This document shows positions 23,150-25,955 of a stretch of DNA of 64,000 bases, in pieces. Below the pieces are notes generated by a model. It was not told the origin of the DNA and did not search any database. It saw only the letters and a program-made list of their open reading frames with translations. The DNA lies in contig JAKSPB010000004.1 of assembly GCA_024405215.1 (NCBI GenBank), forward strand, positions 1 through 64,000, given 5' to 3'. Made by a program: the position numbers and the translations under genes. The DNA comes from Lentisphaeria bacterium. Lineage in GTDB: Bacteria; Verrucomicrobiota; Lentisphaeria; Oligosphaerales; Oligosphaeraceae. Positions within the stretch are counted from its first letter, which is position 1, and each line of letters begins with the position of its first letter.

Positions 23150-24088
23150 ATGTTCGTTATTGCCGCCATCGGATTTTTCATGGGTGCTGTCATCGGCAGC
23201 TTCCTGAATGTGGTGGTGTGGCGCGTGCCTCGCGGGATGTCCTTGAATCGTCCCCCTAGCACCTGCCCGAAATGCGGCCATCGGATTCGCCCCTGGGAGA
23301 ACATCCCCATCCTTAGTTGGATTTTCCTGGGCGGACGATGCAGCAAGTGTCACTTGCCCATCTCCTGGAAGTATCCGGCCGGAGAGGCAGCCGTGGGCTT
23401 GCTGTATGCCTTGATCGCCATGCGCGTGTGGCAAGAGGGCCTTCCGCTTTCCACGGTGCTGGGATGGTGGTGGTTCGCCGGCGCCATGCTTTCGCTGGCC
23501 CGCATTGACTTTGAACATGGCATCATCCCCAACGTGGTGACCTACTCCGGGATGATCGCGGCCGCGCTTTTCAGCGTCGTCTTCCCATATTCCCGCACTG
23601 CGCTTTCCGCGCCGCGCAATCCCAACTACGGCGCGTTGTTGACGCGGCCGCTGGTGGAGGCCATCCAGGGCATCGCGATGCCGGAGAAGGTCTCCTGCCG
23701 GCTGGCCGCCCTGTCGGACTGCCTTTGCGGGATGCTTCTGGGCGCCCTCGTGCTGGGGGTGGCCTACTACCTCGGGGGAAAGGCGCTCGCTGCCTGGCGC
23801 AAACGTCGGCAACAGGCGGAACTGCCTGAGGAGGCGCTGGGAAAGGGCGACATCAAGATGCTTGCCATGACGGGAGCGTTCCTTGGCGCGGATTCCGTGG
23901 TTTTCCTGCTGGCGGGAGGAACGCTTCTGGGATTTGCGGGAGCGCTGCTGCTGTTGGCGAAGGCGTCACAACGCAAAGACGGCGCCTTTTCGCAAGTTCC
24001 TTTCGCGCCTTTCTTCGCTGTGCCTGCATTGCTGTGGGTGGTTCTGGGAAACTGGTTCTACCTTCTTTTCCGACTTTTTAGCGAATGA
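23150..24088 (+). CDS. pilD: Prepilin leader peptidase/N-methyltransferase (A24)
   Basis: A 312-aa polytopic membrane aspartyl protease that cleaves prepilin leaders on the cytoplasmic side and usually N-methylates the new N-terminus. Catalytic aspartates are D120 in ARIDFEHGIIPN and D234 in GKGDIKMLAMTG, the GxGD-type motif. A zinc-binding pair CPKC (39-42) and CSKC (64-67) lies in the N-terminal loop, as in methylating PilD. It has about seven membrane segments and an insert of about 50 residues between the catalytic halves. GGAG lies six bases before the ATG. It is the likely processor of both pseudopilins in the window (16544 and 62918). Confidence 0.93.
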   Translation: MFVIAAIGFFMGAVIGSFLNVVVWRVPRGMSLNRPPSTCPKCGHRIRPWENIPILSWIFLGGRCSKCHLPISWKYPAGEAAVGLLYALIAMRVWQEGLPLSTVLGWWWFAGAMLSLARIDFEHGIIPNVVTYSGMIAAALFSVVFPYSRTALSAPRNPNYGALLTRPLVEAIQGIAMPEKVSCRLAALSDCLCGMLLGALVLGVAYYLGGKALAAWRKRRQQAELPEEALGKGDIKMLAMTGAFLGADSVVFLLAGGTLLGFAGALLLLAKASQRKDGAFSQVPFAPFFAVPALLWVVLGNWFYLLFRLFSE

Positions 24089-24148: not shown

Positions 24149-24177
24149 TTGACAGAAAAAAAACATCGTCATTTACT
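24149..24177 (+). promoter_or_regulatory. Putative sigma70-type promoter
   Basis: TTGACA (24149-24154), a 17-base A-rich spacer, then TTTACT (24172-24177), about 90 bases upstream of the 422-aa envelope protein. The -35 is perfect and the -10 matches at four of six bases. AAGGAG (24251) precedes the ATG at 24268 by a long T-rich spacer. Confidence 0.5.
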
Positions 24178-24267
24178 TGAAATTGGGAGAATAGGGACTA
24201 ATTTGCGTTAATTACGAATTTGTTTCATTGTGCCTGTCCATAAGAACCTAAGGAGTCTTTTTTTCCT

Positions 24268-25536
24268 ATGAGTAAGAGCGGGAAAATCATCGGTGTCGCC
24301 GCATTCGTGCTGGCTCTGGCAGCAGCGGTCCTCGCGTTTTTTGAACTGAAGCAAGCCAAGGCTCATGCCGGACGCTATGCAGAACTGGCCCAAGCTGTTG
24401 GCGCAGCCGCCAAGACCTTGGATTCCGGTAGCGGAAACGCGGCCAAATTGGCCTTCAGCGTTGACGAGAAAGGCAAAGAGCAGGGTGCTCTTGGCTGGGA
24501 ATCCACCAAAGGCCTGGCCGGCGCCACTGACAGCGCCGCCGCTCCCCTGAAGACCCTGGCCGGGCAGTTGATCGACCAGCGTGAGTATCTGATCAACAAC
24601 CTCATCGACCAGGTCGCCAAGACTCTGGAATGCCCGGCTGACAAGCAGCCCGACATGGATGCCGTCTCCAGTCTTCCTGAATACGAGGGCAGCCTGGACA
24701 AGTTCAACGGCTTTGTCAAGGCCCGTGCGAATCGTGATGCCCAGGTGGCCAACCGCGTCAATCAGGTCCTGCGCGTCCTGAATGTCCGCGGCACCTACAA
24801 GGGGATTGTCACCGAGAATGGCAGCCTGGCGCAGAACGATGCGCAGGCTTTCGCCGATGGCGCCAAGAACCTTGGCAATCTGCAGGGCAATTACCAGTTG
24901 ATGGTCCAGACCCTGCGCGATCTTTCCAGCACCCTGCGTTCCGCGCAGGTTTCCGGTGTGCAGTGGGTCAGCCCCAAGGCAGCCGGCAATCTGGGTGGCA
25001 CGGGTCTCACCGAAGGCGAGAACAGCAACAACAAGGATGCCGTCGCCCAGTTCCGCAATGATTTCGAGACTCTGAAGGCTCAGCTGGCGCGCATCGATCT
25101 TCTGGAGAACGACAAGCTGGACCTCCAGGAAGAGATCGCCGAACTGAAGGAGAAGCTGGCTGAGACCAAGGCCATGTATGAGCAGGACGAGGAAGTTCTG
25201 CGCAGCTACTACCGCCAGGGTCTGGGCATGAACTACACCACCACCGACAAGGAACTGAAGACCACCTATGACCAGGTGAAGACGGATCTTTCCGGCAGTG
25301 TCTTGAAGACCGAAGCCAAGTACGGCTACGTCGTGGTCAACCTGACCGAGTGCGATGTGATTCCCGAGCTCCGCCTGGCGGTCTATCGCGATGGCAAGTA
25401 TCTGGCTCTGCTCCGCGTCCTGGCCACCACGCCTTTCAATTCCCTGACCGTTGTCGAAGATGGCAGCATCGCTTCCATCGCCGCCGGTGACACCGTGGTA
25501 GTCGGCGGCCGTGCTCTTCAGCCGGCAGAGTTCTAA
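24268..25536 (+). CDS. Membrane-anchored coiled-coil envelope protein, unknown family
   Basis: A 422-aa protein with an N-terminal membrane anchor (residues 7-25, IIGVAAFVLALAAAVLAFF) and no clear cleavage site. A largely helical, Ala/Leu/Gln-rich periplasmic region follows. A strong coiled coil spans about 265-315 (LLENDKLDLQEEIAELKEKL). The C-terminal domain (about 345-422) has beta character and ends with SIASIAAGDTVVVGG, like a small beta-barrel that presents a loop. I do not recognise the family. A promoter lies upstream, and two 52-aa membrane-linked proteins follow within 35 bp and 3 bp, ended by a strong terminator, so the three form one operon. A structural or scaffolding role in the envelope is the likeliest guess. 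Confidence 0.75.
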   Translation: MSKSGKIIGVAAFVLALAAAVLAFFELKQAKAHAGRYAELAQAVGAAAKTLDSGSGNAAKLAFSVDEKGKEQGALGWESTKGLAGATDSAAAPLKTLAGQLIDQREYLINNLIDQVAKTLECPADKQPDMDAVSSLPEYEGSLDKFNGFVKARANRDAQVANRVNQVLRVLNVRGTYKGIVTENGSLAQNDAQAFADGAKNLGNLQGNYQLMVQTLRDLSSTLRSAQVSGVQWVSPKAAGNLGGTGLTEGENSNNKDAVAQFRNDFETLKAQLARIDLLENDKLDLQEEIAELKEKLAETKAMYEQDEEVLRSYYRQGLGMNYTTTDKELKTTYDQVKTDLSGSVLKTEAKYGYVVVNLTECDVIPELRLAVYRDGKYLALLRVLATTPFNSLTVVEDGSIASIAAGDTVVVGGRALQPAEF

Positions 25537-25567
25537 TTTTAGCGGGTAAATTTTAAGGAGAACAATC

Positions 25568-25726
25568 ATGAGCAAAGACGCACTTCCTGAAGTTGAGAAG
25601 TTCACCCCCGCCAAGAAGGGTTCCAAGATGGGGCTGGGAGATTTCGCCGTCATTGGCACCGCCGTTCTGCTGGTGGCCACGGTTGCGCTTCAGCTGATTG
25701 CCCTCAAGGCTCTCTTCCTCTTCTAA
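25568..25726 (+). CDS. 52-aa single-span membrane protein
   Basis: A short gene with a near-ideal ribosome site (AAGGAG eight bases before ATG). The product has a charged cytoplasmic-looking N-terminus (MSKDALPEVEKFTPAKKG) and one hydrophobic segment (residues 26-52) that runs to the very end (ALKALFLF). It sits 31 bp after the 422-aa anchored protein and 3 bp before the lipoprotein gene. Function unknown; it may be the membrane partner of the larger protein. Confidence 0.75.
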   Translation: MSKDALPEVEKFTPAKKGSKMGLGDFAVIGTAVLLVATVALQLIALKALFLF

Positions 25727-25729
25727 ATC

Positions 25730-25888
25730 GTGAAACAACGTTTCGTCCAATTGGTTCTGCTCCTTGCGCTGGCCATGCTGGCATGGGGAGCGGCTGGATG
25801 CGTCGGTATTCAGTCCGATCCAGAAAGCAACCTCCCCAACAACGCTCCGGCCGAGTGGGAGGGGAAGATGCTGGGTGTGCCGCTTTGA
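25730..25888 (+). CDS. 52-aa lipoprotein with NLPxNxPAxWE motif
   Basis: GTG start three bases after the previous stop. Residues 1-23 form a lipoprotein signal (KQRFVQLVLLLALAMLAWG) and the lipobox AAGC makes Cys24 the lipidated residue. The mature peptide has only 29 residues and contains NLPNNAPAEWEG. I recall similar N/D-x-P-W-x-x-P-x-x-WE tails in tiny lipoproteins of the Lentisphaerae/Verrucomicrobia/Kiritimatiellae group, but cannot confirm this without a search. Exported by Sec, processed by LspA (48486-49070) and possibly sorted by LolCDE. A strong terminator lies 22 bp downstream. Confidence 0.7.
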   Translation: MKQRFVQLVLLLALAMLAWGAAGCVGIQSDPESNLPNNAPAEWEGKMLGVPL

Positions 25889-25910
25889 AACGCTGAACAC
25901 TCCGATACAG

Positions 25911-25955
25911 AAGGAGCTGTTGCAAGACTTCGATGTTTTGCGCAGCTCCTTTTTC
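25911..25955 (+). terminator. Intrinsic terminator of envelope operon
   Basis: GGAGCTG (25913-25919) pairs with CAGCTCC (25942-25948), with inner CAA/TTG pairs, followed by TTTTTCGTTTT. It belongs to the same hairpin style as 8097 and 28579 (GG..GCTGNTGC..). Confidence 0.8.

Follow-up and report, generated by a model that had tools for sequence, protein, structure and literature searches.

A conserved envelope gene module with a tiny lipoprotein in Verrucomicrobiota

Introduction

The locus studied here raises the question of what three densely packed genes may do together in the bacterial envelope, when one encodes a membrane-anchored coiled-coil protein (P1), the next a membrane peptide with a single span (P2) and the last a lipoprotein of only 52 codons (P3), and how far the three are kept together in related bacteria. 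The genes lie in a 64,000-nucleotide stretch (the window) of contig JAKSPB010000004.1 from the Lentisphaeria bacterium assembly GCA_024405215.1, a genome of 2.98 Mb in 82 contigs. An original prediction, made from the letters of the window, had described them as a self-contained cluster of no recognised family that might assemble across the envelope. A keyword search of the published literature found no account of a P1-P2-P3 module, and the main text of the V. spinosum essential-gene paper (PMC12283558) mentions neither lipoproteins nor coiled-coil proteins.

Results

The locus and its signals

The three frames, their ribosome sites and the terminator fall where they had been predicted, and our analysis supports a self-contained three-gene envelope cluster with the following features.

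24177..24204, + strand: conserved promoter-like pair TTGAAA-N16-TAATTT upstream of P1 (alignment of the genus's three genomes)
24250..24255, + strand: Shine-Dalgarno sequence AAGGAG of P1 (sequence)
24268..25536, + strand: P1, 422-aa inner-membrane-anchored helical protein, ATG start (homologues in 51/99 relatives, alignment, AF2 model)
24277..24345, + strand: predicted N-terminal membrane helix of P1, about residues 4-26 (hydrophobic stretch kept in the P1 alignment)
25012..25218, + strand: predicted long coiled-coil helix of P1, residues 249-317 (AF2 model, generic coiled-coil matches)
25288..25506, + strand: predicted C-terminal beta-barrel of P1, FlgT-C / F1-ATPase-N type, residues 341-413 (AF2, Foldseek, FlgT_C matches)
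25555..25560, + strand: Shine-Dalgarno sequence AAGGAG of P2 (sequence)
25568..25726, + strand: P2, 52-aa single-span membrane protein, ATG start, invariant Gln42 (alignments, codon-position bias)
25730..25888, + strand: P3, 52-aa lipoprotein precursor, GTG start (alignments, phylum-wide profile search, codon-position bias)
25799..25801, + strand: lipobox cysteine of P3, Cys24 (invariant in 55 aligned members)
25832..25861, + strand: P3 motif LPNNAPAEWE, family form [IL]PW[NS]xPAxWE (alignment)
25909..25955, + strand: intrinsic terminator closing the unit (fold z-score -4.3)

The promoter-like sequence first proposed, TTGACA at 24149, did not hold up: its -10 element is poor, the promoter scan does not report it and it is not kept in the genus's two other genomes. 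A promoter-like pair further downstream, TTGAAA at 24177-24182 and TAnnTT at 24199-24204 separated by 16 nt, is kept in all three aligned upstream regions of the genus. The strong terminator was borne out, with an 80-nt segment folding at -29.2 kcal/mol (z -4.3) and 0/200 shuffles equally stable; a simple scanner had missed it because of an inner stem. The GTG start of P3 lies 3 nt past the P2 stop and has no Shine-Dalgarno sequence of its own, an arrangement which suggests that P3 is probably translated by coupling to P2.

The gene that directly precedes P1, in the same orientation, encodes a prepilin peptidase (23150-24088), a neighbour found likewise in several genomes of the class Lentisphaeria (G049, G053) and not in other classes. 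Elsewhere, the window's genome carries two MreC-type genes (G000:C63:8949-9305 and G000:C78:63038-63409), as do many relatives.

The small frames

The original prediction would have fallen had its small frames proved untranslated. Counted over eight pairs of related loci, differences at codon positions 1/2/3 came to 39/18/76 in P2 and 72/42/124 in P3, with 360/247/923 in P1 for comparison; this bias opposes the untranslated reading, and the P3 lipobox and motif, together with the P2 Gln, are kept over very large distances in the alignments. Comparative sequence evidence of this kind supports P2 and P3 as translated genes.

P3 has a simple plan: a Cys, 8-18 residues, then [IL]PW[NS]xPAxWE...G, with a mature length of 26-42 residues among members and 29 in the window's P3. 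The Cys follows a hydrophobic signal and is invariant in the 55 aligned members, in agreement with the general bacterial criterion for lipoproteins. The second Trp of the motif (Trp43) is invariant, while the first is Asn in this genome (NLPNNAPAEWE). In E. coli, the residue at +2 after the lipobox Cys bears on lipoprotein sorting (the Lol rule). Asp is found at +2 in 0/55 P3 members, which points to the outer membrane under a rule that is derived from E. coli and may not be that of this phylum. By these features P3 is predicted to be a lipoprotein with roughly 30 residues in its mature form, located probably in the outer membrane; it defines a new lipoprotein family.

P2 consists of one membrane span with an invariant Gln inside it, and P2-like single spans were seen in most of the 20 P1-P3 intervals read directly. 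Outside Lentisphaeria, the P2-like proteins end in YxAxPSxWP; P2 is absent from Opitutia, where P1 and P3 leave no room for it, and from a few Lentisphaeria.

The architecture of P1

None of the three proteins reaches the cut-off of a curated Pfam or NCBIfam family, in keeping with the lack of any recognised family at the outset. For P1, matches to SLATT, YgaB, leucine-zipper and SMC models were set aside as sub-threshold or generic to coiled coils, and profile searches gave no LysM match. In the AF2 model, an N-terminal membrane helix (helix 4-51, its start at low confidence) is followed by several long helices and then by a coiled coil of 69 residues (249-317), and the C-terminal end is a six-strand barrel. 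P1 had been pictured as an anchored helical rod; the anchored coiled-coil protein stands, but residues about 341-413 form a separate beta-barrel domain in the model. Modelled alone, this barrel reaches a pLDDT of 88.5 and a pTM of 0.77, whereas the full-length model has a pTM of 0.42 and so does not fix the overall shape and reach of P1. The layout is unchanged in Opitutia, where P1 is only about 250 aa long.

Among solved folds, Foldseek places the F1-ATPase alpha/beta N-terminal barrels nearest to the P1 barrel (TMq about 0.7) and also finds FlgT (3w1e, E 0.0078, TMq 0.65). Sequence matches are fainter: Pfam FlgT_C (PF16538) weakly matches 10 of 36 P1 barrel domains (best E 0.0016, below the Pfam cut-off), the window's own domain not being among them, and Pfam MreC (PF04085) touches two of the 36 (E up to 0.1, below cut-off). 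Searched by sequence against proteins of solved structure, the barrel profile scores best with TsaP 3jc8, again weakly (E 0.029). The FlgT C-terminal domain, from the Vibrio flagellar H ring, may resemble the P1 barrel in predicted fold and is linked to it by these weak matches, but P1 is membrane-anchored, has a long coiled coil and is not tied to flagellar genes.

In two Akkermansia-like genomes, P1 is tandem-duplicated (L175 of G112, 779-2491; L177 of G114, 378-2017; P1 strand) and a degenerate P3-like lipoprotein follows. The same genomes encode a further P1-like protein of 236 aa (L176 of G112, 637-1347; L178 of G114, 463-1173; P1 strand), which has a coiled coil and a C-terminal barrel of the P1 kind and lies inside a ribosomal protein operon, between rpsS-like and rplV-like genes.

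Gene order across the phylum

Homologues of P1 were found in 51/99 relatives, almost every member of the family and order among them, and most carry a single copy. Within Lentisphaeria, the order P1-P2-P3 is kept in nearly all of 29 readable loci. P3 is present in all but one of 30 P1 loci, a count that takes in the P3 of the L011 genome, found in separate searches; the exception is cut by a contig end. P2 is present in all but three of the remaining loci, and in those three P3 overlaps or directly follows P1.

Beyond the class, a first P3 profile was run on 388 genomes of the phylum and was positive in 317; a broader one detected P3 in 252 of the 289 that are near-complete, representing 147 of 152 genera. 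The gaps are mainly genomes that we label, by inference, Akkermansia-like and Methylacidiphilum-like, and P1 is present there. In the Methylacidiphilum-like genomes, P1 is directly followed by a lipoprotein which carries MPWNTPPSWQ after a long linker, and in the Akkermansia-like genomes by one with the degenerate form SALPHNKSQRFEAEATLGPL.

Both genes could be placed in 72 genomes of the phylum, and in 71 of them P1 precedes P3 directly, in the same orientation; the lone exception has the two on different contigs. The gaps range from -1 to 421 bp and their sizes are bimodal, either about 6-40 bp or enough for P2. The original prediction had staked itself on gene order in related genomes, and this order holds phylum-wide. 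We regard the existence of P1-P2-P3 as a conserved envelope gene module across Verrucomicrobiota as near certain.

A pattern scan for a lipobox, a spacer and PW[NS]xPAxWE was run over an 85,000-species genome collection, and the counts that follow rest on the 80 loci listed. Among these, 75 are in-frame lipoproteins and the other five chance matches. On Verrucomicrobiota contigs are 73 of the 75 listed lipoproteins; the two exceptions are labelled Paceibacterota and 'bacterium', both carry Verrucomicrobiota-type sequences, and their labels are probably uninformative or misbinned. Among the loci listed, P3 was seen in Verrucomicrobiota only, its absence in other phyla resting on that scan.

P3 without P1

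Among the same listed loci, P1 adjoins P3 in 48 of 75, and the other 27 have no detected neighbouring P1 (seven of them near contig edges). In three genomes (G122, G136 and G152), a genome-wide search found no P1 though P3 is present, and genomes of 0.9 Mb keep P3 and not P1. The P3 motif is about as conserved in loci without P1 as in those with it, including at positions that played no part in selecting the loci. A motif that stays intact where P1 has been lost must bind something besides P1, which leads us to place P3 at the centre and P1 and P2 as a link to the inner membrane. Of the assembly of rod and lipoprotein first envisaged, the cluster and its gene order stand, but the two are not an obligate pair, since P3 persists without P1 and keeps its motif intact.

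Discussion

That a bitopic protein of the periplasm, a membrane peptide and a lipoprotein of outer-membrane type are encoded in a fixed order leads us to infer an envelope-spanning module. We put forward tentatively, as a reading that falls a little short of probable, that P1-P2-P3 is an inner-to-outer-membrane module in which the P3 peptide docks on a partner conserved in the outer membrane. The N-terminal helix of P1 would anchor it in the inner membrane; the protein would continue as long periplasmic helices and end in the FlgT-C/F1-N-type beta-barrel, as the sequence and the AF2 model suggest, and may in this way reach across the periplasm. The single-span P2 with its invariant membrane Gln may sit beside the P1 membrane helix, and P3, sitting in the outer membrane, would offer its PW[NS]xPAxWE peptide to that conserved partner. 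The module would thereby connect an outer-membrane machine with the inner membrane or determine where it sits with respect to it, with P3 as the presumed core piece and P1 and P2 as accessories that were lost in some lineages.

The tiny size of P3 and the place of its invariant motif, 8-18 residues from the lipid anchor, would also suit an assembly factor of the LptM kind, with a peptide near the anchor that inserts into one maturing outer-membrane barrel; P1 and P2 would then be an inner-membrane partner whose connection to P3 is loose. LptM of E. coli (YifL, PF13627), likewise a very small lipoprotein of the outer membrane whose conserved peptide lies near its lipid anchor, is known to act so, inserting into the LptD barrel (PMC10567701). 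The retention of P3 without P1 fits this role, and LptD can be detected both in the window's genome and in G122, a reduced one; over the 289 genomes, the LptD profile PF04453 finds 141 and is too insensitive for co-occurrence with P3. P3 differs, however, in its motif and does not match PF13627, the NCBIfam LptM model is touched by only 1/55 P3s (E 0.004) with other lipoprotein models matching as strongly, and LptM-like genes scarcely occur beyond Proteobacteria (PMC10567701). The fixed linkage of P1 and P3 would be left unexplained as well, and we consider an LptM-like role clearly unlikely.

The barrel, the coiled coil and the membrane helix of P1 together recall MreC, and P1 might accordingly be a scaffold that organises periplasmic wall synthesis, with P3 coupling that synthesis to the outer membrane. 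Besides the two barrel domains touched by Pfam MreC, the NCBIfam MreC model touches two P1s, and MurG lies downstream of the module in the window and in L027. The MurG neighbour is not general, Foldseek puts F1-ATPase N barrels and FlgT, rather than MreC, at the top, and separate true MreC genes were found in the same genomes as P1, in 41/41 relatives searched (PF04085). With separate MreC genes throughout and only 2/36 barrels touching the model, we reject P1 as MreC itself, and an MreC-like scaffold appears improbable.

Still less credible is an accessory of the type IV pilus or of a different secretin machine, with P1 as a ring protein like TsaP (the LysM protein of the type IV pilus secretin) and P3 as its pilotin. 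The P1 barrel is weakly TsaP-like (3jc8, E 0.029) and FlgT_C-like, and the window shares with G049 and G053 a prepilin peptidase gene upstream of P1, but this neighbour is not seen in other classes, P1 gives no match to the LysM domain of TsaP, and the Methylacidiphilum-like G126 keeps P1 and P3 with no secretin match (PF00263). We reject this explanation on the neighbour and on G126, and rate it as very improbable.

A prophage lysis pair of spanin type, which shares the general plan of an inner-membrane coiled coil and a small outer-membrane lipoprotein and whose T7 o-spanin model is touched by 1/55 P3s (E 0.074), is scarcely conceivable for a module that is mostly single-copy, chromosomal, vertically conserved across the phylum and set in a housekeeping context with no phage genes adjoining it. 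Phage spanins and Lpp-type tethers alike use a small lipoprotein to link the inner membrane or wall to the outer membrane, but neither shows homology to the module at any cut-off, and the module is conserved in the manner of housekeeping genes. P3 differs from the Lpp/OprI type further in that its 26-42 mature residues are too short for an Lpp-type coil and contain no helix repeat or consistent C-terminal Lys. Another very short conserved protein of unknown function that marks PVC bacteria, the signature protein CT421.2, is reported in Chlamydiae and Planctomycetes too (Gupta 2012, PMC3444138), a reported distribution that differs from that of P3, which among the loci listed was seen in Verrucomicrobiota only.

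We therefore retain, as our tentative preference, the inner-to-outer-membrane module with a docking P3 peptide. A bolder version is possible, if on the unlikely side: P1-P2-P3 might be a trans-envelope machine that almost all Verrucomicrobiota possess and that may be essential to them, with no relation to Tol-Pal, Lpt, Bam and Lpp. An outer-membrane lipopeptide of ~30 residues and a membrane micropeptide would be its conserved functional components, and P1 would connect them to the inner membrane. What is new is the gene families and the module, while the mode of action may be of a familiar type.

The outcome goes beyond what the original prediction led us to expect, because the smallest gene proved to be the most conserved; that gene was missed by annotation because it is so short. 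With P1-P2-P3 come a marker for the phylum, two families of micropeptides and genes that keep a fixed order. The presence of P3 in 147 of 152 sampled genera, its retention in 0.9-Mb genomes and its lack of a family model suggest that it belongs to the basic envelope biology of Verrucomicrobiota, and they make one question directly testable, namely what the PWxxPxxWE peptide holds on to.
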